Source of the DNA: Bacillota bacterium
GTDB taxonomy: Bacteria; Bacillota; UBA4882; UBA8346
NCBI GenBank assembly: GCA_029776205.1
Contig: JAKOTQ010000096.1
Location: forward strand, 1 to 64,000
Direction of reading: 5' to 3'
DNA: 64,000 nt
In this document: in pieces, positions 39,431 to 60,521 of the stretch
How positions within the stretch are numbered: the stretch's first letter is position 1
How the letters are laid out: each line of letters begins with the position of its first letter
Position numbers and translations under genes: made by a program
Notes under the pieces: model-generated
Databases searched by the model: none
Told to the model about the DNA's origin: nothing
Seen by the model: the letters and a program-made list of their open reading frames with translations, nothing else

Positions 39431-40648
39431 TCACCAATAAAATGCTTGTTCCTCAAAAATACCATCAGACCGGATGGATTGCAGTGTCATCTGTAATCCG
39501 GATACAGATACTCTCATCTTTTTTAATTGCTTTTTCAAATGATTCAGAACAGTTTTGCCTCCATCAAGATCGGTCGCCGGTAACAGAACAGCCAAATGAT
39601 CAGGGCCTATCAATGAAATAATATCACTTTTTCGAAAAAATTTACAGATTATTTCCTGAACATCGTTTAATCTCCTACATTTCATTTCGCCCTCATATCG
39701 CCTGATAACGATTATACAGGCAGTTTCTCCCCGGGAAACCCGGCGCTGTTCGATCATGATATAATTTGCAAACAGATCCGGATCACATAAAAAAGGGCCA
39801 CTCGTCCGGTCATCAGCTCGTAGATTTGTAACCTCATTCGGAAAATGACCGCCGTTTATTTTGGTTATAGCCCGATATAACTCTCTTAATTCCCGTGAAG
39901 GCCTTTCACCCAACTCGTTATAAAGCATCGCCGAAAAGGTTGAATATCTTTCTTTGGCTTCCTGAACTTTACCCATTCTCCATAATACTCGAATTAAACT
40001 GCACACGATATCTTCGGCATAAGGATCAGTTTTTAACGCTTTTTCCAAGTACCACCGAGCAGTTTCGTAATCTCCTTCTTCCATTAACCACCCAGCCAAT
40101 TCTTTGGTTGAATTCAAATATAATCTCCGGTAATACTCACGCACCGGCGTTATCCAATCGACATCAGGATCTTCAGCTAAAAAATCTCCCTGGTAAAGAT
40201 CTAACGCTTTCTTATAAATCTCCATCGCTTCCTGTCGTTTGCCTAAGCCATAACCATGAGCTGTATGGCATAACATTTCAAACTCTTCGAAATCGAGCCA
40301 ACACGGGTAAGCCGTATTGAAAAAGCAAGTTCCCTTCCGGTAAATGATCAAGGAATTCAAAGCCGTACTGCTTTTTTTCAAATTTAGTGCTGTTTTCAAG
40401 CGGCAAATCGTCGTTCGTAATACTGCTGTATCCCAGGGTTTCTGATGTTCTGGCCAAAGAGTGGCCAGGATTTCTTCGGTTGGGACCATCAAACCTTTTT
40501 TAACGATTAAGTATTTTAAAAGCATCCACATTTTATGTTTGCTCATGATTCCAAGAGCGGTTTCCTCATGGGGTCCGATGATCCGAAAAAATCCCAAACA
40601 ATAAATCTTCATCAATGATTGCCGCTCTGTCAAAGAGTTTATCATCAC
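39431..40648 (-). CDS. BTAD-family transcription factor with degenerate GGDEF domain
   Basis: The 405-residue protein has an OmpR-like winged helix (about 14-110), a bacterial transcriptional activator (BTAD) TPR domain (about 118-265) and a C-terminal domain (about 290-400) that looks like GGDEF. The active-site loop reads GPDHL (348-352), so cyclase activity should be lost, but R339-K-S-D342 stands exactly five residues before it, the position of the c-di-GMP-binding I-site. I infer a c-di-GMP-responsive activator. It starts at an ATG with AAGGGG upstream. A PilZ gene follows, and an L,D-transpeptidase and a secretin locus lie upstream. Confidence 0.72.
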   Translation of the reverse strand: MMINSLTERQSLMKIYCLGFFRIIGPHEETALGIMSKHKMWMLLKYLIVKKGLMVPTEEILATLWPEHQKPWDTAVLRTTICRLKTALNLKKSSTALNSLIIYRKGTCFFNTAYPCWLDFEEFEMLCHTAHGYGLGKRQEAMEIYKKALDLYQGDFLAEDPDVDWITPVREYYRRLYLNSTKELAGWLMEEGDYETARWYLEKALKTDPYAEDIVCSLIRVLWRMGKVQEAKERYSTFSAMLYNELGERPSRELRELYRAITKINGGHFPNEVTNLRADDRTSGPFLCDPDLFANYIMIEQRRVSRGETACIIVIRRYEGEMKCRRLNDVQEIICKFFRKSDIISLIGPDHLAVLLPATDLDGGKTVLNHLKKQLKKMRVSVSGLQMTLQSIRSDGIFEEQAFYW

Positions 40649-40788: not shown

Positions 40789-41952
40789 TCAACCGGAGGA
40801 ATCTTCCCAGAAAAACAGTTTTAATAGCCAGTTCTTTTCATCCCATTCAAATGTGCTTCCTATTTTATGAATATCCTTTACCGAAATCCAGGACCGGCCT
40901 TCCATATCAATACAGGTCAACCGTTGATCCCCAATCGCGACTTGGGTACAATCAACATTCCAATGGGAATTCTTCCTTATGACTTTACCGATTTTTTCAG
41001 CATCAATCCAGGGAACATTCTGAAAGACCCTTCCCAAATCTTCAATTTCGCGACCGTTAACCAAAACTTTCAATCGATAGAGATTAACCCGATTCTCTTC
41101 TCCATTAAAATCCCATTTATACTTACCGTTTAATAGAACATTAAGAGCGTTTCCGCTGATATACCCCTTAAAATAAGGCTGATCATTGAGCCCCAGAATC
41201 AAATCTTCTTGCAGATTAAAACTCTTCACACTAAAATAGATTTCATTGTCCCACAAAAATCCATCCGTAGATGTCAGCTCACCAATAACATCCAGCGTTC
41301 TGGGTACTTCAACAACAGAGAAACCGCTCTGAGTCATCAGTTCCCCAAGAGCCTGAAGATGCGGTTGATATTTCCATTGTAGGTTCATTAACACTTCCGT
41401 CACTGCCTGTTCCAAATTAGCCCTTTTATAGATATCCGGAAAAAACTCAAGCCAGGCCCGTTCTTCTGCATCGACCCATCCCTGAACAATCGCATATTTC
41501 ACCTTTACGGGCGTTCCCTTAGGAATGAGCTGAAACAATTTTTCAATATCATCATTTCTCATCCGAAAACATCCTTTGGATACCGGGTTGCCAATGGAAT
41601 TAGGCGAATTATTTCCATGGATCCCATAGCCCTTGATGTTCAAACCCAGCCAATATTTCCCCAGAGGATTCGCAGGTCCGGGGGGAACCGGTTTGCGGCC
41701 TTGTGGATACCAAACAGGATTCACCACTTTATTCACAATATAAAAATCGCCAACCGGTGACGGCTCCGAAGGTTTCCCCACAGCCACCGGATATTTTTCC
41801 AAAAGATTTCCTCCATGATATACGTAAAGTTTATATTCGGGTATATTAATCATAATCTGCCAATCCATTCCATCAGACGCCCAGGTACAAGACTGACTAA
41901 CACCAATGACCATCACGATCAATAAAAAGAACAACACCTGATGCTTTTTCAA
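40789..41952 (-). CDS. Exported L,D-transpeptidase (YkuD domain) with C-terminal extension
   Basis: The best start is a TTG at 41952, 8 nt after AGGGGGG; it gives a 387-residue protein with a signal peptide (about 1-26). The YkuD domain (about 30-150) has YGIHGNNSPNSIGNPVSKG followed by CFRM, the H...SxGC catalytic set, so it should make 3-3 cross-links or attach proteins to peptidoglycan. The C-terminal 200 residues contain a copper-amine-oxidase-N-like repeat pattern near the end (NGREIEDLGR, SWISVKDI). It lies between the secretin operon, which ends in a terminator at 42057, and the BTAD gene. Confidence 0.88.
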   Translation of the reverse strand: MKKHQVLFFLLIVMVIGVSQSCTWASDGMDWQIMINIPEYKLYVYHGGNLLEKYPVAVGKPSEPSPVGDFYIVNKVVNPVWYPQGRKPVPPGPANPLGKYWLGLNIKGYGIHGNNSPNSIGNPVSKGCFRMRNDDIEKLFQLIPKGTPVKVKYAIVQGWVDAEERAWLEFFPDIYKRANLEQAVTEVLMNLQWKYQPHLQALGELMTQSGFSVVEVPRTLDVIGELTSTDGFLWDNEIYFSVKSFNLQEDLILGLNDQPYFKGYISGNALNVLLNGKYKWDFNGEENRVNLYRLKVLVNGREIEDLGRVFQNVPWIDAEKIGKVIRKNSHWNVDCTQVAIGDQRLTCIDMEGRSWISVKDIHKIGSTFEWDEKNWLLKLFFWEDSSG

Positions 41953-42056
41953 TGTTAAAAACCCCCCTAAAATCTGCAGGTCATTTAGCATACCTGACAA
42001 TGCACAATCTCTCAAATTTATATGTGTTTACAGGTTAAACAATGACCAAACAGACA

Positions 42057-42090
42057 AACAAAAAAGACTTTATTAAAAAATAAAGTCCCA
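42057..42090 (-). terminator. Terminator of the secretin/barrel operon
   Basis: On the minus strand GACTTTATT and AATAAAGTC (9 bp, perfect) enclose a 4-base loop, followed by TTTTTTG. It lies about 60 bases beyond the stop codon of the shifted barrel frame (42151), which supports that frame as the original 3' end of the gene. Confidence 0.85.
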
Positions 42091-42150
42091 AACTATTGCA
42101 AACCGAATATGTAGTCTATGTACGACCTCCATGCTGCAAATCGGATTTCA

Positions 42151-43808
42151 TCAGAAGCTAAACTTAATACCCAATTTATACCGTTCCTTCATTTTTAAAT
42201 CATCTATACCCAATATCCATGTCAGGTTATGAATGTCCCATTCTAATCGCATTTTATATTTATTAACCTTCGAGCCGCCCATCGCTGAAACATTCCATCG
42301 CAAAGTACCTTCGTCACATCGGGCACCCACTTCCCAATATCCGGAATCCAAAGTTTTTTATCATCCAATGAGTACGTCTGATAGTAACCAGCATATAAGG
42401 TTGTCCGATGAAACCATTTTGTCTCATCGGTTAAACCAATTGAAACCGATGAACACTGACGCGGGCCGTTTCCTTCTCCAATTTTCAACTCCCAAGCAGC
42501 CCCCTTCAGATATTCCAGGCCCCATTTTAATTTCAATTCATAGCAGTTCTGACTTTCATATTCCAGCCTTGTAGTCATCCGTTGATTGAGGGGAAGATTC
42601 ATGATAAACCACGGGTGAATTCCCCGTCCCTCCCCATTAAAACCCAGCACCAGCTCCCGCCGGCTCCCAAAGTCAGCTAGTGGCAGCGTTTTCCCGGACT
42701 CCTCCAATAGATTAAACCCCTGGAGGTTTGCTACAGACATAAAATTGCCATGACTTAACGGGAAAGCCAGTTGCAGATTTAGCGGGATTGCCGTCAGAAA
42801 TAATCCATAGGTACGGGATTCCTGTTGTTGACGGTATCCAAACCAAAAACGCTCCCGTTTCGAATGATTTCGGCGTACGATGGCTATGGGTTCAAAAGCT
42901 CCCGTTCCGGTTGTAACAGTGGACATTACTGAACTTTTACGACTTTCATCACCCTCAAGTTCAATTCTGGTAGTCACACATCCAGTATCAGGATCAATCA
43001 TAACTGGAGTAATGCCCAAACGAAACCGTTGATCTTCCTCCGGTTGATCTCCTACATAATGCGATATGTCAACCAGTTGCGCAGTTCTGCCGGGCAACAC
43101 CGCCACCCATGGCTGCCGGTTGATCCAGTCACTTCGATTCACGCTAATCTTGCTGAAAATCGTAACCCAATCTCCGGCCGCCCTCATCTGTTCCAACGTG
43201 ATCATCCCCTCCGTCGTTGAGGAGCTAGCATCGTTCGAAACCCTAAATAAACGGCTGACTTCGTCGCTGACATTCGTCATATCCACAATACATAGACTGT
43301 AAATTACTGCAGTTTGTACTCTGGATGAAGAAATCGACCAAAGCTTACCTAATATTTCATTAACCTTTGAAGACGGTGCTTTTATAAAAATAAGTCCCAG
43401 CTTCATATCATATTTCAGATATGGACTGAACTCCGCCAACTCAGTCAAAAGCTTTGAGTCAAGAAAACCAACTGGTATCCGATAAGTTTCCCATTCCACA
43501 AAAACAGTCCGCGGCGAGTCAGTCCCGCTTACAAGATATACCTTGTCAACTGCAGTAAAGGAATATCCTAAAGGACTTAAAATATCGGTGAGCACTGCTT
43601 CGATCGGCCTTTCCATATCGATCGTTGCGTGAACAACACCCTGTACTGACGGGTCTTTGATAATACAAACCCCATAATGCTTACTTAACGCCTCAAGCAC
43701 CTGGGCCAGCGGAGCTTCTTTAAAAATCAGTCTGCTGCTTGCAAAAGAACGGGAACTTAATCCCAGAGCCATCACCACGATAATCCAGAAAAGGTTAACC
43801 CGTTTCAT
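42151..43808 (-). pseudogene. Secretin N-domain/beta-barrel fusion protein, frameshifted near its 3' end
   Basis: The zero frame (42243-43808) encodes 521 residues: signal peptide (1-23), an N0/STN-like domain (about 26-96, LIFKEAPLAQVLEALSKHYG), an N1-like domain (about 108-175) and a large barrel region (about 330-480). After LDDKK at the A6 run 42354-42359 (minus strand) it continues into about 36 residues that do not look like a barrel. Reading -1 there gives TLDSGYWEVGARCDEGTLRW and onward, with amphipathic strands ending LGIKFSF at 42151, a proper barrel end. It overlaps the secretin gene by 4 bp. It could be a decayed gene, a slippage-dependent product or a one-base sequence error. Confidence 0.7.
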
Positions 43809-45013
43809 TCCTTGACAACCTCAGCCGTTATGAAGATCAACAATTGGCTGTCACTTTTCTCAGTGATTTTTTCCCTAAAGAAAAACCGAATAAGCGGGAC
43901 ATCTCCCAATCCGGGAACTTTTTTCTGGTCACTTTTTTCTTTGCTTAAGGTAAGACCCCCAACCATCATAGTCTGGCCCGGAGCCAATCTGACCACGGAC
44001 TCAAACTCCCGGGTTTTGATTAAAATCCGGTCGACCTCTTCTTCTTCAATCCCACTGACCTTTTGACTGATGAATAACTCCAGAAAATCATGGTAAACCC
44101 GGGGAGTAACCTTTAGCGTGATTCCGGCCTCGACCGTTTCAGACTGATTGCTATAAGGTGAGTCCTCATCCGGACGTAAAATAATGGTCTTTTTGTCACC
44201 AACGAATAATTGTCCGGTTTTCCCCTCCGCGATTAAAATCACTGGATCAGCTTGAATGGCTGCCTTCTTTTCCTGACTCAACAATTTAATCTTCGCCAGT
44301 AACTGACCAAAACTCCCACTACCCCGAAGAGTCATTAAACCTTCTGCCATATCATAAGAACCTGCACGACTTGATACGCCAGCTTCATTATTAAATTCCA
44401 ACAGATTCAAACCCAGTTCTTTAATGGCGTCCGTCTGCACCTCCGTCACCAGTGCTTTTATCCTGATCTGGGCTTTTCCTTCATCCATCTTCGCCAGATC
44501 TGCCAAAATCGTCGTAACAATGCTGGACGGAGCATTCACAGTCGCTACATTACTTTCAACATCAAACCGGACATATTCCCTGTAAATTTCCGGCAATAGA
44601 GCCTTAGCAGACTCAGCGCTGATGTTTTTAAACCGAAAGATTTCCGTCTGGCAAAGCAACGCATAAGTAGGATTTTTAGCATCAGGCAACCCTACAATGT
44701 AGTAGTCATCGAATTTGCGGTACATATATCCTCCGCCGCTAATCATCATCCGCAAAGCTTTCTCAAAGGGTACATCCTTCAATTCCATTGTAATGACCCC
44801 TTTGATATTTTCATCAGTGATAATCGTTACTCCCGTCTGGAGAGAAACCTCTTTCAACGCTTCCCGTAGGTCGGTATCAAAAAAAGTAGCGGTAACCAGG
44901 ATATTTTCGGTTTCATGATGGATATTGGTCCCTGCAATTGCGCCCGTACCGAAAAAGTGAATGATAAAACATCCGATACTCACCCACAGAATGATGTGAA
45001 CCCATTTTTTCAA
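43805..45013 (-). CDS. Secretin (GspD/PilQ-type outer-membrane channel)
   Basis: The 402-residue protein has a signal peptide (about 1-27), N0/STN (about 40-105, FFDTDLREALKEVSLQTGV), one N1/KH-like domain (about 120-190) and a secretin domain (about 200-400) with VAPGQ-like RLAPGQTMMVGGL and the signature VPGLGDVPLIRFFF. It is short, lacking N2/N3. Secretins form 12-15-subunit gated pores for type II/III secretion, type IV pili or phage. No ATPase, pilin or inner-membrane platform gene lies in this cluster. It is followed with a 4-bp overlap by a second protein that shares the N0-N1 part. Confidence 0.92.
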   Translation of the reverse strand: MKKWVHIILWVSIGCFIIHFFGTGAIAGTNIHHETENILVTATFFDTDLREALKEVSLQTGVTIITDENIKGVITMELKDVPFEKALRMMISGGGYMYRKFDDYYIVGLPDAKNPTYALLCQTEIFRFKNISAESAKALLPEIYREYVRFDVESNVATVNAPSSIVTTILADLAKMDEGKAQIRIKALVTEVQTDAIKELGLNLLEFNNEAGVSSRAGSYDMAEGLMTLRGSGSFGQLLAKIKLLSQEKKAAIQADPVILIAEGKTGQLFVGDKKTIILRPDEDSPYSNQSETVEAGITLKVTPRVYHDFLELFISQKVSGIEEEEVDRILIKTREFESVVRLAPGQTMMVGGLTLSKEKSDQKKVPGLGDVPLIRFFFREKITEKSDSQLLIFITAEVVKE

Positions 45014-45086
45014 TTCACTCCACCTCTTTTTTGCCCCAGAACAGTCTTTTGAACCAATTACGAACGAAGCCTATTTTTATCCGGTA

Positions 45087-46625
45087 TTATTTCAACTCCA
45101 TAGTCAATCGGGAAACCCCTATTTCATTTGATCCATGATAGATTCTGATTTCTGCCTGATATTTCCCAGGTTTGAAACCTTCAGCATATCCCATAAGAGT
45201 CATCGTTTTGAAAGGCACCACCGCTTGTTCTTTTTCACCGGTCCCATTCACTTTCACCATGCCCAATGTTTTACCGTTTTCGCCTTTGATCACCACATCA
45301 GCCTGGGGAGCGATTTTAATATTCCCTTTATTCTTAACAATGACCGACACTAAGTAATTCGAACCATCCCGGGCAGCAGAAATTCCTACCGCTTCAGCCT
45401 CTGTTTTATATGTACCGGTCACCACCGCTTCCAAGTTTAGCATCGATTCTTCAAGCAACATCGGATTGGGCCCCATCGAAAAGACTTTAACTTTTAAAAT
45501 GCCATAATTCCCTTGAACAACGGAATCTTTCGGAAAATTGGCTTTAACGATAATCGTTGTCATCCTTCGCGGTTCCAGAATGACCTCTTTTCCCGGTTTA
45601 AACTCCAAATTGACGAATTTTAAAACCGAAAAAGGATAATTGGGTTCAATTTCTGTTGGTTCCAAAAGCACTCTCAACGGCTGATTCCACTTGTTCTCCA
45701 CCGAAAAACTCTTCAGCATCGAAGTACCCGGCCGACCATTGAACGTCAGATAATCGGTTGAAACGGAAACACGTTTCAATTTATTTTCCTGATAATAAAA
45801 ATCTCCGGACTTTACCTGAATGGTTTTTGAAAGCAATATCTGACCCGATGAGCCATATTGATAGAACAATCGTAGTTCATATTCACCAGGCGTCAAAACC
45901 TGGTTGGGTGTTCCATAATACTGCAGGATACTGCCTGGAAGCATATGCATTTCGGATTTGCTATTTAGCCAGCCGACTTCCGGACGCAACTCAACCCGTT
46001 CAATCAATCGCTTCGTTTTATTGTCACGAATGGTGATAAATGCACTGGTGTAATAATCCAACAACGAATTATTTTGAACAACCGCATATACCAGAGGCTC
46101 TCCGTTTGCATTCCTGATCAATTCAAAGGCATTAACTTTTGCCGTAGGACGCAATCCCGGAGCATCGATTTTAATATTTAGCAAAACCGCATAACGAACG
46201 CCCAACTGCATAGCATCATTAGCCTGAAAGTTTTTGGGTTCTACCATAACCGCTGCCAGATGACTGCCTTTTGCATTTAAAGGTATCTTCACCGTTCCCC
46301 TGACGGTAAACTCTTCTCCGGGTTTAAGCAGAACGCGGGTAGTATCTAAACGGATCCATTGATTTACCTGAAAATTCTCAGGTATTATAAAGGACAAGCT
46401 ACCATCGGGTTGTTGAAACGGTTGATATATCGCAAACTCAACCTGTTCCGGTATATTGTCAAGGGCCGACAACTTAAATTGAAAGGAACCAGTTTCACCA
46501 GGCTTCAGCTGCAACGGTATTACCAATGGTTGAACCCCAACCGCACAATCCCCCGTAGAAACAAAAAATAACAACAAAATCATTACCATGCAAAAAATAG
46601 AACGTGAATGCCGCTGGTATACCAA
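45087..46625 (-). CDS. Secreted multi-Ig-like protein (DUF916/chaperone-like N-domain)
   Basis: The 512-residue protein has a signal peptide (about 1-28), then several beta-sandwich modules with no transmembrane anchor or sortase signal at the end. The first (about 30-155, LQLKPGETGSFQFKLSA, then LKPGEEFTVRGTVKIP) resembles both DUF916 peptidoglycan-binding proteins and periplasmic pilus chaperones. Three further Ig-like modules follow, the last ending RIYHGSNEIGVSRLTMELK. Its place between two small AGEYxG proteins and a secretin suggests a chaperone, anchor or tip role in surface assembly; this is inference. Confidence 0.6.
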   Translation of the reverse strand: MVYQRHSRSIFCMVMILLLFFVSTGDCAVGVQPLVIPLQLKPGETGSFQFKLSALDNIPEQVEFAIYQPFQQPDGSLSFIIPENFQVNQWIRLDTTRVLLKPGEEFTVRGTVKIPLNAKGSHLAAVMVEPKNFQANDAMQLGVRYAVLLNIKIDAPGLRPTAKVNAFELIRNANGEPLVYAVVQNNSLLDYYTSAFITIRDNKTKRLIERVELRPEVGWLNSKSEMHMLPGSILQYYGTPNQVLTPGEYELRLFYQYGSSGQILLSKTIQVKSGDFYYQENKLKRVSVSTDYLTFNGRPGTSMLKSFSVENKWNQPLRVLLEPTEIEPNYPFSVLKFVNLEFKPGKEVILEPRRMTTIIVKANFPKDSVVQGNYGILKVKVFSMGPNPMLLEESMLNLEAVVTGTYKTEAEAVGISAARDGSNYLVSVIVKNKGNIKIAPQADVVIKGENGKTLGMVKVNGTGEKEQAVVPFKTMTLMGYAEGFKPGKYQAEIRIYHGSNEIGVSRLTMELK

Positions 46626-46752
46626 GATTAGACCTCCTTCAGGAACACTGAACCACTCATCCCATCAATCCGCTTCTAATTTCCCATTCATGAATCTTTA
46701 ATAACTTCCAATTACCAAAACCACTAACGTTAAAATCCCTGGATAAAGAGGG

Positions 46753-46789
46753 AAGTTCACCCCTTTCCCGCAACGAAAGGGGCGAACTT
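46753..46789. promoter_or_regulatory. Intra-operon stem-loop after the AGEYxG subunit gene
   Basis: AAGTTC-CCCCTTTC pairs with GAAAGGGG-GAACTT (14 bp with one mismatch) around a 7-base loop. On the minus strand it lies just after the stop of the 186-residue gene and lacks a clean T-run. It would stabilise the upstream mRNA or allow partial termination, raising the subunit level over the downstream genes, as in many pilin operons. Confidence 0.6.
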
Positions 46790-46802
46790 TTATCTTACAT
46801 TA

Positions 46803-47363
46803 TCATCTGTTACCGTAATCAGCAGCATAAACTGTAGCGATCAATTGTCCTTGATATTCTCCGGCCGGCTGGTCGGATACTCTTCCAAGTTGAGCCTTAT
46901 ATTTAACGCTGTAAGTCGTAATTCCACGACCGACAGGGCTTGGCTTGGCGGTTTCTTTCTCGTTATACCCAGCTTTCATTTCTCTCCAGCCATTACCGTT
47001 GCCAACTTTCATATAGCTTTTAAGCGTAAAACGTTCTTTACCAATCTGTTTATAGAAAGGAACGCCATCCACTTTGACAAGAACATTGCAGTTGCTTTCC
47101 ACCCTAAATTTGGCTTCTCCCTCTTTGACTTCATTGGCTCTACCGACAAAACTCAACTTTTCAGCATTAACCCAACCGATGCATGCATATTTCCCAACTT
47201 CGGCGTTGATCTTGATGGAAGAAGACGGACCACCCAATTGGCTTACCGTACCGCCGTGTTTGTCAATCAGTCCAGCCATCGGATCGCGACCGTTTTGTGC
47301 AAAAGCACTACTGACCGAAACCAACAATAAACCGACCAACATCAACACCATGAACTTTTTCAT
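46803..47363 (-). CDS. Secreted AGEYxG-type structural subunit B
   Basis: The 186-residue protein has a clear signal peptide (about 1-23, ending AFAQ) and a mature beta-rich part with two cysteines (CIGWVN and SNCNV). The end, RVSDQPAGEYQGQLIATVYA, matches subunit A and resembles the last strands of spore-coat-U/DUF4402-type fibre subunits (PAGxYxG/D...TV). It has AGGAGG before its ATG, and a stem-loop follows, suggesting high expression. I infer a secreted structural protein; polymerisation is unproven. Confidence 0.6.
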   Translation of the reverse strand: MKKFMVLMLVGLLLVSVSSAFAQNGRDPMAGLIDKHGGTVSQLGGPSSSIKINAEVGKYACIGWVNAEKLSFVGRANEVKEGEAKFRVESNCNVLVKVDGVPFYKQIGKERFTLKSYMKVGNGNGWREMKAGYNEKETAKPSPVGRGITTYSVKYKAQLGRVSDQPAGEYQGQLIATVYAADYGNR

Positions 47364-47455
47364 CTCAAAATCCTCCTCTGGTTTTGTTATCGTAAAATTG
47401 AAATCAACAATGGTATTCCTTTTCCCTATTCACCTCCATTCAACCGCCTGCACCG

Positions 47456-47944
47456 TCATGGCATTCTAATCACTGTCACGAAAACTTTCCCTGTATACTC
47501 ACCAGCCGGTTGGGCGGATATTTGATGTATCCTTACCCTTCCGTAAAGCACCATCTCCAGGCAACGGGTCTTCCCTTTTTCCAGGGGTGAGTTGGTGATA
47601 GACAGAAGGTAAGGTGTATCCATGGTTAATCGCTGATGCTCTTGATCAATCCAATAAACTGTGTCCAGTTCGTATTTGCCCCTTTCCTGATTGCCCTGGT
47701 ATCGAAGGGGAGTGGCTGTCAGCCGAAGTTGATAATGGCCTTCTCCGACAAAAACTCTGATTTTAACCGGTTCAATAGGATATGTACCAACTGCACCGGA
47801 CAATTTTATTTTAGGCGGGCTGGATATCTCGATACGGGTAAGAACAGCAGAGCTCTTGTCTGCAGCCAAAAGCTTGTTGTCATCCAGCCAATTTCCCAAT
47901 GACATCAATGCACACAGCATTAAAATGATCAAGTTTCGTCTCAT
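47456..47944 (-). CDS. Secreted AGEYxG-type subunit A
   Basis: From the ATG at 47944 (GGGGTG upstream) the 162-residue protein has a hydrophobic N-terminus (about 3-28) that can act as a signal peptide, and a beta-rich mature part. It ends QISAQPAGEYTGKVFVTV plus four residues, parallel to subunit B, with which it also shares the IKI/VGxY-type middle. It heads the operon and could be a minor or initiating subunit. An upstream in-frame extension to 48034 lacks supporting signals. Confidence 0.55.
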   Translation of the reverse strand: MRRNLIILMLCALMSLGNWLDDNKLLAADKSSAVLTRIEISSPPKIKLSGAVGTYPIEPVKIRVFVGEGHYQLRLTATPLRYQGNQERGKYELDTVYWIDQEHQRLTMDTPYLLSITNSPLEKGKTRCLEMVLYGRVRIHQISAQPAGEYTGKVFVTVIRMP

Positions 47945-48041
47945 GATAGGCACCCCAGGTTTACTCAACGCACACCCATAATATATATATATGATAGGTT
48001 GTATTAGCATTGCCAAATTTCCCATATTATTCATCGCGACC

Positions 48042-48070
48042 TATAAATCGGAAAAATTTCCATTTGACAA
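48042..48070 (-). promoter_or_regulatory. Promoter candidate of the subunit/secretin operon
   Basis: On the minus strand TTGTCA (48065-48070) and TTTATA (48042-48047) are spaced by 17 bases; a GGAAA-TT-TTTCC dyad lies in the spacer. A leader of about 90 nt precedes the chosen subunit A start. Confidence 0.45.
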
Positions 48071-48091
48071 CCGTCATTATATGATTAAAGC

Positions 48092-48107
48092 GTAACTAAA
48101 TTGTTAC
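48092..48107. promoter_or_regulatory. GTAAC-N6-GTTAC dyad upstream of the subunit operon
   Basis: GTAAC (48092-48096) and GTTAC (48103-48107) form a 16-bp dyad. It is centred about 65 bp upstream of the predicted start point, a usual place for an activator. Confidence 0.4.
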
Positions 48108-48173: not shown

Positions 48174-49370
48174 TCAATCCTTCATGAGTTGGTTCATTCG
48201 AATGATGGTCCCTTTGGTAATCGCCTGTTCGCCAAATCTATTTTTCAGTTGATCGACTGTCCGGTGCAGTTTATCAAGTTGAACCATTGTCGGGCTCTCC
48301 AGTTCTTCAAACAAAGCTAATTGGGTTTGTGAAGCTTCAAAACCGCTGACCGTAATGCCCAACAGACGGACTTTCCCGTCACCCCATTGAGCCTGCATAG
48401 CCAAATTTAAAGCAACCTGATAAATGGTTTCTTCAAAGTCGGTCGGCTGTTCCAAGGTGATTTGCCTGGTTATAGTTTTAAAAGCATGATCTCGGATTTT
48501 TACGGCGATCACCCGCCCCTTCAGCTGGTGCTGCCGCAACCTGCGAGCCACCTGATCAGCCAGACATAATAACACACCGGTTAAAAATTCCCGATCATCC
48601 GTATCCTCCTGAAAAGTCATTTCGTGGCCAATACTTTTAGCCGCTTCATCCGTAACCACCGGCCGATCATCCCGTCCATGAGCCAACTGATGGAGATGAG
48701 CTCCAACCTCTCCCAAGCGTTCAATGAGTTTTTCCAACGGATAACGACGTAACATCCCTATCGTCCGAATTCCCATTTGGAACAGAATAGCCTCGGTCCG
48801 TTTGCCTACTCCCCAAAGCTTTCCTACAGGTAAATCTTCCAAAACCTCCAACACATTCTCAGGAGAGATCACTACAAAACCCTTGGGTTTTCTTAAATCC
48901 GACCCTAATTTGGCCAAAAATTTATTGGGGGCTATACCGACCGATGCGGTAAGCCCAATCTCCTTCTCAATCCGTCGCACAATAGTTTTCCCAATCTCAA
49001 CCGCAGGCCCAAAAATCCCTTCGGATCCGGTTAAATCCAAAAAAGCTTCATCCAGTGACAGGGGTTCAACCAGTGGAGAATATTCTGCTAAGATGTTCAT
49101 GATTTGCCGGGAAACCTCAGCATACCTTTTCGCCCGCACCGGAAGAAAAATACCCTGAGGGCATTTACGAAAGGCTTCTTGAAGGGGCATCGCGGAATGA
49201 ACGCCAAATTCGCGTGCTTCATAGGAGCAGGTGGAAACCACTCCCCGTTTTGACGGATCTCCACCAACAATCACGGGTTTCCCTCGATAAGCGGGATTAT
49301 CCAATTGCTCCACGGATGCATAAAAGGCATCCATATCGAGATGTAGTATTTTCCGTTCCATCTTAAACAC
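48174..49370 (-). CDS. dinB: DNA polymerase IV (Y-family)
   Basis: The translesion polymerase DinB copies past damaged bases. The 398-residue protein has the catalytic LHLDMDAFYASVEQ, LSLDEAFLDLTGSEG (acidic pair), helix-hairpin-helix near 170-200 and the little-finger domain (about 240-350). It ends with a QLxLF-like clamp-binding sequence (QLALFEELE) around residue 355. The start is GTG at 49370 or the ATG three codons on. No LexA-type operator is visible upstream; instead a 72-bp direct repeat occupies that gap. Confidence 0.96.
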   Translation of the reverse strand: MFKMERKILHLDMDAFYASVEQLDNPAYRGKPVIVGGDPSKRGVVSTCSYEAREFGVHSAMPLQEAFRKCPQGIFLPVRAKRYAEVSRQIMNILAEYSPLVEPLSLDEAFLDLTGSEGIFGPAVEIGKTIVRRIEKEIGLTASVGIAPNKFLAKLGSDLRKPKGFVVISPENVLEVLEDLPVGKLWGVGKRTEAILFQMGIRTIGMLRRYPLEKLIERLGEVGAHLHQLAHGRDDRPVVTDEAAKSIGHEMTFQEDTDDREFLTGVLLCLADQVARRLRQHQLKGRVIAVKIRDHAFKTITRQITLEQPTDFEETIYQVALNLAMQAQWGDGKVRLLGITVSGFEASQTQLALFEELESPTMVQLDKLHRTVDQLKNRFGEQAITKGTIIRMNQLMKD

Positions 49371-50016: not shown

Positions 50017-50046
50017 ATTATACTATAGTTACCTAGCTTTTGTCAA
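50017..50046 (-). promoter_or_regulatory. Sigma-A promoter of rpsU
   Basis: On the minus strand TTGACA (50041-50046) and TATAAT (50017-50022) are spaced by 18 bases. The -35 box begins right after the hinT stop codon, giving a leader of about 77 nt. Confidence 0.78.
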
Positions 50047-50047: not shown

Positions 50048-50395
50048 TCATCCCGGAGGCCAACTCATACTGCGTCCGGCAATGACATGAAAGTGTAGAT
50101 GATGAACGCTTTCCAAAGCATCCCGGCCATAATTGACGACCACCCGGAACCCATTTTCCCTCAATCCAAGCTCCTGGGTGACCTTTTGAATGGCTTGCAT
50201 CAAATCCGTCGCCAACCCTTCCTGAAGTAAATTGGGATCAGCAATATTGGCAATATGCCGTTTCGGAATGACCAAGATGTGGGTGGGCGCTGCGGGTTCA
50301 ATATCTTTAAATGCTATAACCCGTTCATCCTCATAAACCACTGTGCTAGGTATTTCTTTGTTAACGATTTTACAGAATACGCAATCTGACACCAA
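50048..50395 (-). CDS. hinT: HIT family (HinT-like) nucleotide hydrolase
   Basis: The 115-residue protein has CVFCKIVNKEIPS at the N-terminus (zinc ligands CxxC) and the histidine triad SVHHLHFHVIAGRSMSWPP at the C-terminus. HinT proteins hydrolyse adenosine 5'-phosphoramidates and aminoacyl-AMP. The start is TTG at 50395 or the following GTG, both served by AAGGAGAG. It is followed by rpsU with its own promoter. Confidence 0.95.
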   Translation of the reverse strand: MVSDCVFCKIVNKEIPSTVVYEDERVIAFKDIEPAAPTHILVIPKRHIANIADPNLLQEGLATDLMQAIQKVTQELGLRENGFRVVVNYGRDALESVHHLHFHVIAGRSMSWPPG

Positions 50396-52561: not shown

Positions 52562-53560
52562 CTAAGCTCCTTCCGGGCAATCTGCTACCGAATCATCGGT
52601 CCCATGACAGTCGCCGACAAAAATTGACCGGCCCAACCCGGCATCAAATGGCGCCCATTCCGAAGATGACTGATGTTCCCGCATAATCGTGAGAAACTTA
52701 TTGGTTTGGGCATCCATATTATCGGCATGATGTAAGATACAAGCTTCAATCATCAAAGGCTCTATTGGCGATCCCCATTCCATCAGGCCATGATGACTGA
52801 CCAACAGGTGTAGAAGTTTTTCCCGTTCCAACCTGTCCCCACCGGCAACCTGCTCCCAGGCGCGCTCGACCATTTGGACACCAATCACCAAATGTCCCAA
52901 AAGTTTCCCTTCATCGGTCCCCTCAAAACCATTCTGAATTCGATAAGTTTTAACCTTGCCGATATCATGCAATATCGCGCCGGTTAAAAGCAAATCCCGG
53001 TTAACCCTGGGATAATATCCGGCTGCAGCCGAGCATAAGGCAACCACTCCTGCCGTATGTTCTGCCAATCCACCAATATATGCATGATGACGCTTTAACG
53101 CCGCCGGCACTTTCATAAATTCAGCCACAAATTCCGAATCAGCGAAGAAAACGCTCAACACCTTACGATACATAGGGTTGGTAATGGATGCCATGACACC
53201 GCTCAGATAATTCCAGTATTCCTTAGGATTTCCCGGAGTATGCGGTAAAAATTGCGAATAATCCGCTTCATCTCCGGTAAGCACGCGGTAGGCTTGACTT
53301 GAACGTCCATCCCATTCCAGTTGAACTTGATCCTTAAAGATTTTCGCTTCAACATTTTGAAGTTCAATAATCTTGCCTGTTGTCAAAAGTTCGGATAAAG
53401 CATCATCCGCTTCCCATACTTTTACCGGCAGTTGGCCGGTTCGGTCAGCAATTCGCATCGACAGATACCGGGTTCCGTTTTTAGCCATCCGCAACTGGCT
53501 GTCGACGATCAAGAACAATCCATTCACCATTTGGTTTCCGGTAATGTCTTTAATAAACAC
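52562..53560 (-). CDS. YhaM-like 3'-5' exoribonuclease (OB-fold + HD domain)
   Basis: The 332-residue protein has an N-terminal OB-fold nucleic-acid-binding domain (about 10-95) and an HD domain (about 150-300) with HHAYIGGLAEHT, ILHDIGKVKTYR and LVSHHG metal ligands. This layout is that of Bacillus YhaM, an Mn-dependent 3'-5' exonuclease acting on short RNA. It overlaps the yprB-like gene by 11 bp. A tail of about 30 residues is not typical. Confidence 0.88.
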   Translation of the reverse strand: MFIKDITGNQMVNGLFLIVDSQLRMAKNGTRYLSMRIADRTGQLPVKVWEADDALSELLTTGKIIELQNVEAKIFKDQVQLEWDGRSSQAYRVLTGDEADYSQFLPHTPGNPKEYWNYLSGVMASITNPMYRKVLSVFFADSEFVAEFMKVPAALKRHHAYIGGLAEHTAGVVALCSAAAGYYPRVNRDLLLTGAILHDIGKVKTYRIQNGFEGTDEGKLLGHLVIGVQMVERAWEQVAGGDRLEREKLLHLLVSHHGLMEWGSPIEPLMIEACILHHADNMDAQTNKFLTIMREHQSSSEWAPFDAGLGRSIFVGDCHGTDDSVADCPEGA

Positions 53561-54464
53561 AGGACACCGCCTTTCCGCCTTCGCCAGGGATTAATATTCC
53601 CAATAATTTGGCTAAAGCCAGCAAATCACAGGCATTGTGTTTTAAGATCGGATCGATATAAAACCGATCTCCAGTATCCATAAAACGTTGGTAAAATTCA
53701 GGCACTTCGGAGCCAGGAAGATCCCCTTCCCGGACTTCCTTAAAGACAAACTTTTCAATGGTTGTCAAGCGGCAATTTGGTAATATCGGTTTAAACTCTC
53801 TACGGGCATGTTTTAACAAGTCCAGATGAAAGGCTTCAAACCGATCATCCATTTGATAAAATCGCAGCCTGCCTTTGAGATAAGGAATATCAAAACTTTT
53901 ACCATTATAACTGACCAAAATCCCTTGGTTACGAATAGACTCACTAAGTTCAGCCAAAATAGCAACTTCTTCCTCAAAATTCCGGGCTAAAAACTGCCGG
54001 ATGACTCCTTTCCCTTCTTCAAACTGGAGTACACCGATTAAAAAGACGGGATACATATAATAAAGTCCGACAGTTTCAATATCAACAAAGGTCAGATCTT
54101 CCGGACGGTAAAAGCTAAGTAACTCCAGATCCGAGGCACCATATTTCTGCAACCGGCCAATATCCCGTTTTTCTATGATCCGAAGCAGTTCCCGGGCAGC
54201 TCGTGACCATCGCGGATGCCGGCATAAATCGGACAATGTTTCATAACCCTCATTCTTCAACATACCGGCTGTCACAGAGCCGATACCAAACACCAATTTT
54301 AAATCGGAATGAATCAAATCTTTCGATGGGAACACCCATTCCACATTACGGGTTTCATATTCGATCAACTGATAGGTCCCGACATGGTTCTGAACAGCCT
54401 CATCCCTGCGGACCGCCCATTCTTCGGTACCGGATGTAGTTATCGTTGGATCGTAAGCTTCCAT
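53550..54464 (-). CDS. YprB-like RNase H-fold exonuclease
   Basis: The 304-residue protein has a helix-hairpin-helix region (about 55-95) and an RNase H-like domain (about 120-300) of the YprB group. DEDD acidic residues are visible in FVDIETVGLYYM, SYNGKSFDIPYL and HNACDLLALAKLL. The exact nucleic acid substrate is unknown. It begins ten bases after lptA, linking the outer-membrane operon with RNA or DNA turnover genes. Confidence 0.85.
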   Translation of the reverse strand: MEAYDPTITTSGTEEWAVRRDEAVQNHVGTYQLIEYETRNVEWVFPSKDLIHSDLKLVFGIGSVTAGMLKNEGYETLSDLCRHPRWSRAARELLRIIEKRDIGRLQKYGASDLELLSFYRPEDLTFVDIETVGLYYMYPVFLIGVLQFEEGKGVIRQFLARNFEEEVAILAELSESIRNQGILVSYNGKSFDIPYLKGRLRFYQMDDRFEAFHLDLLKHARREFKPILPNCRLTTIEKFVFKEVREGDLPGSEVPEFYQRFMDTGDRFYIDPILKHNACDLLALAKLLGILIPGEGGKAVSCVY

Positions 54465-54473
54465 ATTATCACC

Positions 54474-55286
54474 TCACGGAGAGGCAGTCTGTTCATCGTC
54501 GGATTGCTTCTCACCGTTTTCTTCAGGGAGAGGTTCGTTGCCCGTTATCTCCACATCAGGTCCATCTCCGGAATCCACCGGAATTTCTCCCTGATCGGCA
54601 GGTTGAACAGGGGCTTTTTGATCTTTTTCATCTTCGTCATCATCCACATCGAAATGGATAATGACATTGCTTTCAACCACGAATGTCTTCTGCTCCAGGT
54701 TAATCCGGGTTACGTCTCCTTGTAATTCTTCGCCTTCCGGCTTTTTCAGATGGGTATTTCCCCGAAGGGTTAACAACTGAAGACGATCATTATATTCGAT
54801 AACATCTGCTGTACCGATAAAATCCTTGTGGACGATCCGGCCTGGTTTAGCCGTAAAGTTTTTAGTATTGGACTCAAAATACAATTCATCAGTAAAGAGC
54901 GTGAACGGATCCTTTTTGTCCCCGTCTTTTCCCGTTGTTTTTCTCTCAAGACGCTGCAATAAAACATTAGACTTAAATGTGCCGTTCTTCTTTTTCATAT
55001 TATAATCTAAAATATCCGCACTCACCATCAGATCATCGCTATTGGTGAATGTCACAGTTCCTTCCAAATTAAGCAACTTCTTATCCAAATCCACCGTTGC
55101 AGCATCCGTGGTAATCACATCTGAACCCTGAACTATCCGCACATTACCGGTAATATATGAAATCTTTTTTTCAGTATCTCCGCGAATCCGATCCCCGGTC
55201 ACTTTCACTTTATCTTCGGCTAAGGCGGTTATCGACCCGCCCAACAATATGATGAAAACAATCCAGGGTAACAATTGGCGCTTCAT
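54474..55286 (-). CDS. lptA: LPS transport periplasmic bridge LptA, with acidic tail
   Basis: LptA links LptC to LptD, forming the periplasmic bridge for lipopolysaccharide. The 270-residue protein has a signal peptide (about 1-23) and OstA-type beta-jellyroll repeats (about 28-210, e.g. VKVTGDRIRGDTEKK, NVRIVQGSD). It is longer than typical LptA (about 185) because of a C-terminal tail (about 212-270) rich in D, E, P and G (FDVDDDEDEKDQ) that is predicted to be disordered. It overlaps lptC by 4 bp. Confidence 0.88.
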   Translation of the reverse strand: MKRQLLPWIVFIILLGGSITALAEDKVKVTGDRIRGDTEKKISYITGNVRIVQGSDVITTDAATVDLDKKLLNLEGTVTFTNSDDLMVSADILDYNMKKKNGTFKSNVLLQRLERKTTGKDGDKKDPFTLFTDELYFESNTKNFTAKPGRIVHKDFIGTADVIEYNDRLQLLTLRGNTHLKKPEGEELQGDVTRINLEQKTFVVESNVIIHFDVDDDEDEKDQKAPVQPADQGEIPVDSGDGPDVEITGNEPLPEENGEKQSDDEQTASP

Positions 55287-55921
55287 AAACTCAATACGAC
55301 CCCTTCCGGCTCAACCAGTTCAAATTCTTCCGTTTTCAAGTTATACCGTACCCCTTTTGACCGAAGACTGTCTCCATTCTGTTCTAGTTCGACTCCATTA
55401 TCCAAGATCAGCATTTCGTTTTTGAGATCGAGCTGCATCGAACCTGCTGTCATCTTCAGATTTTTACCGGTAACTGTAACCGGCCGCGAACTATGGATAA
55501 TCTCCGTATCATAACGCATCACCACTTCTTCAGTTGTCAGAATTTTATCTTCGACTCTGGCTTGAAGATTACCTCCTATATAAAGAGATTTGAAAAACTT
55601 CTCCCACCGAGCCCATTTCGATTGGAAAGCGACTTCCTTTCCTTCCAAAGAAAAAATGATTCCTTCTGAAATATTTTCAAAATAAATCTGATTGCCACCA
55701 TTGGTCTGCCAAATTCGCTCGGCCTTCACCTCCCAGGTCTTTTGCGAACCATCCCAGCCGACCAGTTTTGACTGGCGGATAATCATATCCGGTGCTACCG
55801 GTTGAGGCTTGGCCACAGGATCGGAAGTCGGCGGTTCTTCCCACCAGCCGCCGTAATGGCCGAGAACTGCCACCAGTGTCGTTGCCAATATCCAAATGAT
55901 CGGAATAACGAGTCGTTTCAT
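55283..55921 (-). CDS. lptC: LPS export protein LptC
   Basis: LptC anchors the LptA bridge to the inner-membrane LptBFG transporter. The 212-residue protein has an N-terminal anchor (about 5-22), a proline-rich stretch and a beta-jellyroll (about 45-205, LVGWDGSQKTWEVKAERIWQ, then MRYDTEIIHSSRPVTV). It overlaps lptA and lptD by 4 bp each. Similarity to LptC is by fold pattern and position. Confidence 0.88.
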   Translation of the reverse strand: MKRLVIPIIWILATTLVAVLGHYGGWWEEPPTSDPVAKPQPVAPDMIIRQSKLVGWDGSQKTWEVKAERIWQTNGGNQIYFENISEGIIFSLEGKEVAFQSKWARWEKFFKSLYIGGNLQARVEDKILTTEEVVMRYDTEIIHSSRPVTVTGKNLKMTAGSMQLDLKNEMLILDNGVELEQNGDSLRSKGVRYNLKTEEFELVEPEGVVLSL

Positions 55922-58083
55922 TGGTTCAATAACCCCGTCGCATCCATATTGGTCCCGATTTTTGCCTGGGGAAACGCCTTAAAATTTAATTGCAAGTTAT
56001 AAGTCTCTTCCACATAATCATAACTGAAAATAAGATCCCGGCAATGCCAATTATAGGTCAGATCAAAATTTAACACCGAGAAATCGCCGACTAAACCGCT
56101 ATATCGGGCGGAGAACCGTATTTTCCAGTTCTGAGCAAGTTGCTGAGTAATCTGCGTCTCGAGATAACGCTCTCCCCACAACTCGGACTGGAAATCATAA
56201 TTAACGCCCATATTAATTCGCCAATTCTGTTTCGGAAGATAAAGGAAATATACAGTCGTATAACCCAATCCCCGATGGTAATACCGGTCATCTTCAAGAT
56301 AATAGACAGAGGAAAAACTGAAACTGCCTTTGGCATCCGGATTCCACGAAGCCGAAACATTCACCGGATTAAATGTTTGATAGGTCAGGTTATAACCGGA
56401 ACTCAAATTGAGATTGAACGTTTTTAACCTCCAGTTCCAACTGTTGGTCACAGCACCCCCATCGGTCAGATTATCGCCAAATCCGGTTACAAACATATCC
56501 GGAACTTCACCATACTTGGCTGTATAATTAATACCGATAACCGTAGACAATGCCGGACTGAACTTTTTTTGAAAATTAATCCCTTCAATGAGAGCTGCAA
56601 AATCTGAACCGATCCCATCAACCCAATAATGACGATATAACAACTGATTGTTGGTGGAAAGTGTCATATCGTTCTTTTCCCAGAATTTAACGGACTTGCT
56701 GAATTTATTGGCTAAACGTTGACCTTTATAGTGGGTTGTTACTATGTTGTTGGTAATCGCCCGATATTCATAATTGGTAAACTGACTATTATAAACGATC
56801 TCACCCAGCCACGGCAACTTCCACTTTGGAACATTAAAAGTAATATCAGGAAGATAGTTAGTGTCACTGGTATTCACGCTACTGGAAGAATTGCGGGTTT
56901 GGTTATCGGTGATTTTAAGCGTAGCATTGCCCCATCCCCAATCCTTCGATACATTTAAATTGTAGCTAAAATTGTCGTTAAAATCTCCGTCGATTTCCTC
57001 CCGATAATACCAAGCCCCACTCGTAGAAATGTTAACTTTGGATCTTGTCACATAAGACCAGCTTTCACTGAAATTCAGTGTTTCGGCTTCATCTTTATCA
57101 TCTTTATAACTCATTCTCAACGTAGGATACGGAGATATTCCGTCGATGTTCACGATAACTTTAGAATATCCCGAACCCTCTAAATCATCCGTATACCAAT
57201 TCTCAACATCCACTTTCCATTTCATTTTGGAATTGGTTTCATTTTTATATCCAAAAGCCAATTTGTATTCATTATATATTGCATCATTGTCACTATTGTC
57301 TTTATAAAAAAAGTCTTGGTACCATTCGATCTTTTCCGAATATTTCGTGGTATTTTTAATACCGATACCATCTCCGCCCCATTGAGTCAATTTCGTATAA
57401 ATCGTCCCTTTGTTTCTGGCGTTCAAATAGTAATTATACCCTACATAAAGGTACCATCCGGTATCCGTTTCATAACCAATCTTAACATCAAAAATACTGT
57501 CATCTTCCTTCAGGGAAATCACATAATAAGGGAAATAAAGAATCCGGTACTTTCCTTCCCAATACCACATCTGATAAAAGACGATCCGATCCTCCGGATA
57601 GTATTCAACCCGTTCCGCCGTGAAACGATAATGAGGCTCTGCCAAATTACAACTGGTAAAACTGGAGTTTTTAAGAAAAAGATCGTCCCCTTTCACCAAT
57701 CCCTCAACAGCGGAAAAATAAGCCGGGCCTTCCATTCTGGAATCTGTCACTTCTGTAAAAATCGGAGTCACCCATCCTTGTTCGGTGCGGATATCATAGA
57801 TAAATTGCTCCCCTTGGAAGGAATCCTCTCCCTGTTCGATTTGGACATTTCCCGAAGCAACCAACATTTTTAAGTCGCGATCCAACAGCGCATGATCGGA
57901 AAGGATCTTAATATCCTTATATGTAATCTGGACATGACCCCACGCCTCAAGTTGACGCGAATGATCCTCATATTCAATCCGGTCCGCTTTTAACGTTACC
58001 GGATCTCCTTTGGCCCATGCCGGTACATTCCATGATAACAGGAGAAGAAAAGCGAATATTCCTGCAGCCCACCGCAACTTCAT
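55918..58083 (-). CDS. lptD: LPS-assembly outer-membrane protein LptD
   Basis: LptD inserts lipopolysaccharide into the outer leaflet. The 721-residue protein has a signal peptide (about 1-24), an N-terminal OstA jellyroll (about 28-135, VTLKADRIEYEDHSRQLEA) and a large aromatic-rich barrel (about 190-700). There are exactly two cysteines in the mature protein: Cys145 in SFTSCNLAEPHY and Cys681 in NWHCRDLIF. They match one of the two disulfides of the E. coli protein, where the second site is a CC pair. The LptE partner is not recognised. It overlaps lptC and lptF by 4 bp. Confidence 0.95.
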   Translation of the reverse strand: MKLRWAAGIFAFLLLLSWNVPAWAKGDPVTLKADRIEYEDHSRQLEAWGHVQITYKDIKILSDHALLDRDLKMLVASGNVQIEQGEDSFQGEQFIYDIRTEQGWVTPIFTEVTDSRMEGPAYFSAVEGLVKGDDLFLKNSSFTSCNLAEPHYRFTAERVEYYPEDRIVFYQMWYWEGKYRILYFPYYVISLKEDDSIFDVKIGYETDTGWYLYVGYNYYLNARNKGTIYTKLTQWGGDGIGIKNTTKYSEKIEWYQDFFYKDNSDNDAIYNEYKLAFGYKNETNSKMKWKVDVENWYTDDLEGSGYSKVIVNIDGISPYPTLRMSYKDDKDEAETLNFSESWSYVTRSKVNISTSGAWYYREEIDGDFNDNFSYNLNVSKDWGWGNATLKITDNQTRNSSSSVNTSDTNYLPDITFNVPKWKLPWLGEIVYNSQFTNYEYRAITNNIVTTHYKGQRLANKFSKSVKFWEKNDMTLSTNNQLLYRHYWVDGIGSDFAALIEGINFQKKFSPALSTVIGINYTAKYGEVPDMFVTGFGDNLTDGGAVTNSWNWRLKTFNLNLSSGYNLTYQTFNPVNVSASWNPDAKGSFSFSSVYYLEDDRYYHRGLGYTTVYFLYLPKQNWRINMGVNYDFQSELWGERYLETQITQQLAQNWKIRFSARYSGLVGDFSVLNFDLTYNWHCRDLIFSYDYVEETYNLQLNFKAFPQAKIGTNMDATGLLNQ

Positions 58084-59171
58084 CCGCTACCTCCACGGTG
58101 TTCGATGCCAATCATCAGCAAGACCCCTAACACCAAAAAGACGAGATGAGGTATCCAAGCCGCCAACCATGGAATTAAAACACCGTTAGCACCCATCGTC
58201 CTCCCCACAACCTGCATGGTATAATAAGCCATAATAATTAAAAAGCAATATACCAGTCCCAACCAACGGGAATTCCGTCCGGTACAGATCGTCAACGGGA
58301 CCGCAACAAAAGCGAGAACCAACGAGATCAACGGATCAGCAAATTTTTGATGGTAATATACCGCATATACCGGTGAATTTAAACCGCTCTGAACGCTCAT
58401 TTCATAATGCTTCCAAAGTTCCCGGCTGGTCATAGCTGACGGAGATTTATCTTCACCGAGAATTTCAATAAAATTCTTGACCATCTTAAGTTCCATTTCA
58501 TCATAACGCACCTCAGAAATGATCGCTCCCGTATCGTCCGTTTCATGAATAACTCCATTACGCAATATCCAAATTCCCTTTTTTAACGTACCGGATTCGG
58601 CTGTAATAATCCGGGGCCATTGTCCAGATTGGCCGGCTTCAATAATTAAGACTCCGCCAATGGTCCCTTCCTTATGATAAACATGCTTCAAAAAGATAAA
58701 ACGGTTTTCAGGGGCTTTAATGACCACATTTTCCTTTAAAAGTGGCAGATTATCCTGCATCTGCAACCGCTGAACCTCTTTTTGAAACCGGTGATTGGCC
58801 GCAGGTACCACCCGATCATTCCAAAAAAAAGCACCAACACAAAAAACCGTTACTCCGACAAAGATGGAACCCACGGTCCGCATCAGTGAAGCTCCGCAAA
58901 TCCGAAAGACCTCAAACTCCCGTTCACGCAGCAATCGACCTAAACTCAGAATAATCCCAAATAAACAAGCTGCCGGCAGCACATCCATCCACAAAACCGG
59001 CAATTGATTTAAAACAAGGTAGCCCATTAATTGGGCAGTCATCCGATAACCAATAAACATATCATTGTAATCAAAGATGATTTTCCCAATACCAAGCACC
59101 ATAAAACCAAAACTGCAAATAAAAAACTGAAGGATAAACTCCTGCCAAATATACCGATGGATGATACGCAC
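58080..59171 (-). CDS. lptF: LPS export permease LptF/LptG family
   Basis: The 363-residue product from GTG at 59171 (GAGGTG 6 nt upstream) has the YjgP/YjgQ layout: two N-terminal and about four C-terminal transmembrane helices around a periplasmic jellyroll (about 110-270). LREREFEVFRICGASL is the coupling helix for the ATPase LptB. In E. coli two paralogues (LptF, LptG) pair; only one is present in this window, so it may be a homodimer or its partner lies elsewhere. It starts the lptF-D-C-A transcript and is preceded by a T9 terminator. Confidence 0.92.
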   Translation of the reverse strand: MRIIHRYIWQEFILQFFICSFGFMVLGIGKIIFDYNDMFIGYRMTAQLMGYLVLNQLPVLWMDVLPAACLFGIILSLGRLLREREFEVFRICGASLMRTVGSIFVGVTVFCVGAFFWNDRVVPAANHRFQKEVQRLQMQDNLPLLKENVVIKAPENRFIFLKHVYHKEGTIGGVLIIEAGQSGQWPRIITAESGTLKKGIWILRNGVIHETDDTGAIISEVRYDEMELKMVKNFIEILGEDKSPSAMTSRELWKHYEMSVQSGLNSPVYAVYYHQKFADPLISLVLAFVAVPLTICTGRNSRWLGLVYCFLIIMAYYTMQVVGRTMGANGVLIPWLAAWIPHLVFLVLGVLLMIGIEHRGGSG

Positions 59172-59195
59172 ACCAGCCACCTCATTTACTTTTCT

Positions 59196-59220: not shown

Positions 59221-59293
59221 TCGATCATCCTAAACATTACTCTAAGCAAAGCTGTATCGAGAGCCAAGTTATATCAAATCATCCAAAACAAGT

Positions 59294-59345: not shown

Positions 59346-59377
59346 TCCCTAAAAAATCCTCCTTTTTATGCTCCTGA

Positions 59378-60504: not shown

Positions 60505-60521
60505 AAAAGTATACCATGGCT

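Follow-up and report, generated by a model that had tools for sequence, protein, structure and literature searches.

A conserved gene system of diderm Bacillota, independent of type IV filaments and of type II platforms, is encoded on the minus strand between positions 42057 and 48107 of the 64,000-nucleotide stretch of DNA analysed here (hereafter the window; contig JAKOTQ010000096.1 of assembly GCA_029776205.1, from a member of the Bacillota). Five open reading frames, named A to E, were confirmed by a reading-frame check. A and B are small secreted subunits, C is a secreted protein with four predicted immunoglobulin-like (Ig) domains, D is a short secretin, and E is related to secretins and has a predicted barrel of its own. 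By the features tested, this cluster is neither a type II, type IV or Tad system, nor a chaperone-usher system, nor a WxL cluster; we rate the gene system, known here from its genes and predicted folds, as categorically new, every component belonging to a known superfamily. In its working it would come closest to chaperone-usher export and, on balance, we favour the view that it is a dedicated ATPase-free chaperone-secretin pathway that exports and assembles the A/B-type subunits. A search of the open-access literature turned up no account of such a system. All coordinates are those of the whole window, and L and G numbers designate the loci and genomes of our survey.

Conservation and distribution

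The initial annotation of this DNA had proposed a five-gene operon whose order should recur in relatives, and it does: A-B-C-D-E is kept in four other genomes belonging to two families (G009, G014, G015 and G019; loci L028, L031, L032 and L033), and C-D-E is found at contig edges in G003 and G008 (L029, L030). Across the phylum, C and D together with E (or a small barrel-like protein) and subunits occur in about 13 families, and the profile of C, run on 399 genomes from 267 genera, matched 42 of the genomes, which belong to 28 genera. C and D do not always come in the same order, so what is conserved is a set of genes rather than one fixed order. D lies nearby on the same strand in 39 of the 43 loci with a long C and in none of the 15 loci with a two-Ig homologue of C (Fisher test, 1.3e-10, a value that ignores relatedness); the four long-C exceptions are two short contigs (L121, L126) and two loci of genomes without Omp85 (L139, L151). 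The gap between D and E is between -19 and +19 base pairs in 15 of 17 measured loci, with larger overlaps in L031 and L033, where the start of E is uncertain. A degenerate pattern scan of 84,980 species genomes, made with a single pattern of low sensitivity, retrieved seven loci, all of them in Bacillota. Related loci come from metagenome-assembled genomes of Bacillota from anaerobic digesters, and the cluster is probably present in cultivated species.

The region 53553-64000 encodes LptA/LptD-N-like, LptC, LptF/G and LpxD proteins and two OmpH/Skp proteins, and BamA begins at the edge of the window. Because these Lpt, LpxD, OmpH/Skp and BamA genes lie in or just past the window, the host is a diderm, probably bearing lipopolysaccharide, which agrees with the diderm host supposed in the initial annotation. 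Omp85 was detected in 37 of the 41 genomes tested, covering every genome that bears D, and the four genomes without it (G235, G048, G051 and G299) contain WxLIP-like or C-like genes with no adjoining secretin. The D-bearing cluster is restricted to diderms.

A separate secretin lineage without a platform

The 402-residue product of gene D (43805..45013), announced earlier as a short but full secretin, indeed contains N0, N1 and a secretin core, matches the Pfam Secretin family (1.4e-31) and is the only secretin over threshold in the host genome. We built a tree of 37 sequences by a quick search with no bootstrap, combining 25 cluster secretins with 12 others (two secretins of E. coli, and PilQ/GspD-type proteins encoded in the cluster-bearing genomes or in their relatives); all 25 cluster secretins formed one clade apart from the others (Shimodaira-Hasegawa approximate likelihood-ratio support 98). 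Relatives encode D plus a separate PilQ/GspD, and G329 has four secretins, one in the cluster, one by a second C-type gene (L163) and two elsewhere. In this single-contig genome, which has no type II/IV platform, the latter two (L161 and L162) are secretins of about 500 residues encoded near repeat-rich proteins.

The operon itself encodes no ATPase, prepilin, inner-membrane platform or Pfam usher, as had been stated from the first reading, and the type III proteins SctRSTU and SctN are absent from the locus. T2SSF (PF00482) is absent from six cluster-bearing genomes (G179, G238, G329, G199, G223 and G247). The last three were discounted because T2SSE remains near contig ends; G179 (96% complete), G238 (98%) and the single-contig G329 (99%) lack T2SSF and have no T2SSE (PF00437) above the cut-off. 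With a separate secretin clade and three cluster genomes lacking a platform, a split type IV pilus locus was rejected, and the earlier statement that this is not a type II or type IV pilus locus stands. A hidden usher was likewise rejected: PF00577 was detected in 0 of 61 relatives and E is a relative of secretins, which bears out the earlier exclusion of a chaperone-usher system for want of an usher. No nearby locus supplies a platform, and the type IV pilus genes of the host are on another contig (C13, locus L025), where PilB, PilT, PilC, prepilins, PilD, PilMNO and a PilP-like protein, partly named by inspection, are encoded up to the contig end; as this locus stops just past the PilP-like gene, the PilQ of the host probably lies in an assembly gap. 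In those parts of Antunes et al. and Denise et al. that were available, the secretins of diderm Firmicutes are treated only within type IV filaments.

Protein E, a secretin relative with a predicted barrel

The start of gene E (main frame 42243..43808) overlaps the stop of D by ATGA, and its product aligns to residues 44-284 of D; the alignment takes in N0, N1 and some of the secretin core. The AlphaFold2 model of the intact orthologue of G009 shows N0, N1 and secretin-like hairpins followed by 12 antiparallel strands (residues 399-566); Foldseek returned secretins first, and the barrel matched the 12-strand porin KdgM (template modelling (TM) score 0.65, root-mean-square deviation 4.5). E is thus modelled as N0-N1 domains, then a decayed secretin core, then a barrel predicted to have 12 strands. 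The initial annotation, which had joined N0-N1 domains to a different barrel, was right on both of these parts and had omitted the decayed secretin core and a frameshift considered below with the reading frames of the host gene.

Protein C and the two-Ig family

The AlphaFold2 model of C (45087..46625; 512 residues) consists of four Ig-like domains (predicted local distance difference test (pLDDT) 85.5), in keeping with the Ig-like secreted protein of that length described at the outset. The two halves of C are homologous to each other (probability 96.2%), and two-Ig proteins some 270 residues long form a family that matches both of them (98.8 and 97.9%): C is a tandem internal duplication of a two-Ig module, of WxLIP/chaperone-like type. 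WxLIP proteins bind WxL surface proteins. Using Foldseek, the top matches of the C model were long Ig-repeat proteins with low TM scores, and the sole whole-protein fold match among the matches listed was the WxLIP of E. faecium (9i1y/9i25; TM 0.55-0.59 over about 250 residues), the WxLIP matches including a WxL-bound entry. The two-Ig homologues match the WxLIP-like protein of L077 (98.7%), and C shares the two-Ig module of WxLIP by this homologue link and by its fold; the match to Pfam WxLIP_PGBD was below the cut-off.

In relatives, the two-Ig homologues adjoin subunits with an AGxY motif and often also a large protein of 830-990 residues. Clusters L068-L072 and L080-L082 combine AGxY-motif subunits with a two-Ig protein of WxLIP/chaperone-like type. 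Those with a sufficiently long flank also have such a large usher-like or barrel protein, which carries Ig and SdrD_B domains and is missed by the Pfam Usher model. The large protein of G011 (L072) aligns to the plug region of FimD with an NG...PGxFxIxDI...DG pattern (69% probability), and these proteins possibly represent an undescribed usher family in Bacillota. In genomes without Omp85 (L139, L151, L152 and L158), a WxLIP-like or C-like gene adjoins that of a single small secreted protein, of AGxY type or similar; these loci may connect the chaperones of diderms with the WxL clusters of monoderms.

Subunits A and B

Genes A (47456..48034) and B (46803..47363) encode proteins of 192 residues, counting from the first ATG, and of 186 residues, and a start of A near 47944 is more likely than that first ATG. 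Signal peptides are seen in both sequences, which end ...QPAGEYTGKVFVTV (A) and ...QPAGEYQGQLIATV (B) and carry near their C-termini the motifs AQPAGEYTG and DQPAGEYQG. The two secreted proteins with a common QPAGEYxG motif reported from the first reading are therefore present, and hhalign shows the two families to be homologous (probability 94.9%). The C-terminal AGxYxG...TV resembles the last strand of WxL domains. Orthologues of A occur in L028, L031-L033 and L075, and the profile of B matches in many loci; subunit genes are multiplied in L075, where the B-type gene is present in three adjacent copies, and in L124 and L125. Sequence searches of Pfam, NCBIfam and PDB found no significant family for any of A, B, C and E, none of 29 subunits matched the WxL Pfam family, and profile comparison of the A/B-type subunits with the fimbrial subunits of E. 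coli K-12 gave no match.

Behind the subunit genes, between B and C, lies a strong hairpin (46753..46789, minus strand) that may act as a partial terminator or as a stabiliser of the mRNA (-27 kcal/mol over 46745-46800, z -5.4). Of 14 loci compared, 10 carry a strong hairpin 3' of the B-type gene, with z between -1.8 and -8.2 (median over all 14, -3.1), and a comparable one is present in 0 of 9 stretches after C (median z -0.7) and 0 of 12 after D (median z +0.7). In fimbrial operons, a hairpin behind the subunit gene causes the subunit to be made in excess. Because the same device follows the B-type gene, the A/B-type proteins are probably structural.

Proposed mechanism and alternatives

In the pathway that we favour, the A/B-type subunits would cross the inner membrane by Sec and be held in the periplasm by C, whose doubled two-Ig module would probably lend them a beta strand, after the model published for WxLIP and WxL. 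The complexes of C with its subunits would dock on the periplasmic N0/N1 ring of D and possibly also on E. The latter, a secretin relative in which the gate appears to be swapped for its own 12-strand outer-membrane barrel, would stand beside or in the ring as a docking, gating or anchoring partner. Passing through D, the subunits would then form a polymeric fibre or coat, with their own folding as the driving force and no ATPase, as in chaperone-usher export. We infer the chaperoning, the export route, the polymerisation into fibres and the role of E from genes and models, and the export or anchoring of a fibre or surface layer, put forward in the initial annotation, has the same standing.

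Several observations weigh against this pathway. The A/B-type subunits match no Pfam fibre family, and their match to Caf1 is non-significant (E 0.8). The link by sequence to PapD-type chaperones is weak: the two-Ig proteins match 10 pilus chaperones of K-12 over their full length at 90.1%, with an Ig background of up to 80%, and the halves of C alone match them at under 1%. The model of E is mediocre (mean pLDDT 64, predicted TM score 0.36). In addition, E of the host is frameshifted near 42341 (apparent frameshift 42260-42351): the main frame covers N0-N1, the decayed core and the beginning of the barrel, and its end (...YKLGIKFSF) lies in a shifted frame (42151..42351), orthologues matching by tblastn the main frame to about 42341 and then the next one. 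This frameshift is either a mutation or an assembly error, and intact copies of E exist in relatives. Finally, E was not detected in a divergent branch (L132-L148), in which D is followed by a barrel-like protein of 233-433 residues; as this protein takes the place of E, the N0-N1 domains of E are not essential everywhere.

The main alternative, which we regard as unlikely but deserving of attention, is surface display, in which A/B and C would form a WxL/WxLIP-like complex exported via D and held at the surface or at a polysaccharide by E, C being a structural partner and not a periplasmic chaperone. The specific fold match of C is indeed to WxLIP, WxLIP-like genes are present in genomes without Omp85, and WxL clusters typically contain one WxLIP and two WxL proteins (PMC10599100), the same gene stoichiometry as A, B and C. 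However, the C model lacks the C-terminal transmembrane helix present in WxLIP, the two-Ig homologues adjoin usher-like proteins, and the multiplication of subunit genes with a conserved hairpin behind them suggests synthesis in excess. That E, and not D, would be the usher-like platform, the subunits being threaded through or beside its barrel with D as an accessory ring, seems improbable: E does have its own barrel and N-terminal domains, and D and E are always coupled, but a 12-strand KdgM-like barrel leaves too little room for folded subunits, the barrel of ushers having 24 strands, and the divergent branch keeps D with only a small barrel-like protein remaining.

Very little credit can be given to a role in envelope structure or polysaccharide export with A/B as carbohydrate-binding periplasmic proteins, for which an L,D-transpeptidase gene adjoining the operon (40789-42015) and a Wzz-like gene near L034 could be invoked, since neither neighbour is conserved beside the core and the cluster has no glycosyltransferase or polymerase. 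Least credible and largely refuted is the proposal that D serves as the secretin of a type IV pilus, type II or Tad system from which the cluster has become separated. The truncated pilus locus of a host in which no other secretin was found, the prepilin-peptidase-like gene directly upstream of A in L031-L033 and the adjoining of cluster and pilus locus in L036 would fit such an origin; against it stand the relatives that have D plus a separate PilQ/GspD, the separate clade of the cluster secretins and the three cluster genomes with neither a platform nor an ATPase over threshold.

Regulatory signals and neighbouring genes

The promoter and terminator attributed to the operon in the initial annotation fared differently. 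The terminator, a hairpin with a T-run, is present (42060..42090, minus strand; z -4.2), but the promoter is supported in part: a possible -10 box, a perfect TATAAT by reading of the sequence (48076..48081, minus strand), has no canonical -35 and was not matched at that position by the promoter scan. A BTAD-type transcription regulator (39431..40648, minus strand; Pfam BTAD 6.3e-22) is a possible regulator of the operon, and its homologues lie beside or inside the cluster in six other loci (L120, L034, L119, L124, L125 and L130). Elsewhere in the window, a perfect 12/12 sigma-70 consensus (TTGACA-18-TATAAT) is located at 50017-50046 on the minus strand, between a gene at 48174-49370 (DinB-like by reading) and another at 50048-50395.

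Two other contigs of the host (C40 and C42 of G000; loci L026 and L027) carry similar VirB-type loci, with a VirB11-like ATPase recognised by PF00437 and VirB4-, VirB9- and VirB10-like proteins named by inspection only; they are probable conjugation systems. Among Limnochordia isolates, strain L945 has a surface layer (S-layer) visible by microscopy, with no S-layer protein found in its genome (PMC11456536). It is speculative that the cluster supplies this S-layer, the strain having been matched to none of the surveyed genomes.

Comparison with known systems and significance

Chaperone-usher systems (type 1, P, archaic Csu and F1 capsule) share with the cluster small secreted beta-rich subunits in several copies, an Ig-domain partner, the lack of an ATPase, a hairpin behind the subunit gene and an operon-encoded outer-membrane export component. 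The cluster differs from them by having a secretin and a secretin-barrel hybrid and no usher, by the doubled module of C and by subunits outside the fimbrial Pfam families. WxL/WxLIP (DUF916-DUF3324) clusters of monoderm Bacillota (PMC10599100) similarly join two small secreted proteins to one protein with a two-Ig module, whose fold C matches; by contrast, the present cluster occurs in diderm hosts and with a secretin and a barrel, its C is doubled and without membrane helix, and A and B have no WxL Pfam match. With the secretins of type II, type IV pilus and Tad systems, D has in common its N0, N1 and secretin core, but the cluster has no platform, ATPase, prepilin or alignment proteins, its secretins form a separate clade and it is present in genomes without T2SSF. 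The clusters L068-L072 and L080-L082 have homologous two-Ig proteins and AGxY-motif subunits and differ in that the usher-like or barrel protein, itself apparently undescribed, replaces the secretin and E.

More tentatively, and with rather more doubt than confidence, we consider the idea that the cluster represents a novel route for constructing surface polymers across an outer membrane, in which a secretin ring and a secretin-barrel hybrid replaced the usher. On this view, the two-Ig chaperones of diderm Bacillota and the WxLIP of monoderm Bacillota would belong to a single family as separate branches, and WxL/WxLIP clusters would be what was left after loss of the outer membrane. To our knowledge, every secretin studied in depth works either in a machine that has an inner-membrane platform and an ATPase or in phage assembly. 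If the pathway proposed here is true, the combination of a conserved platform-free secretin with a chaperone-type protein and fibre-like subunits would amount to an export machine of a new kind, in a cluster spread widely through a diderm group that ranks among the least explored. Because members of the two-Ig family are accompanied by a secretin, by an usher-like protein or by neither, depending on the type of envelope, the family offers a concrete route to the fate of surface appendages when Bacillota lost their outer membrane.

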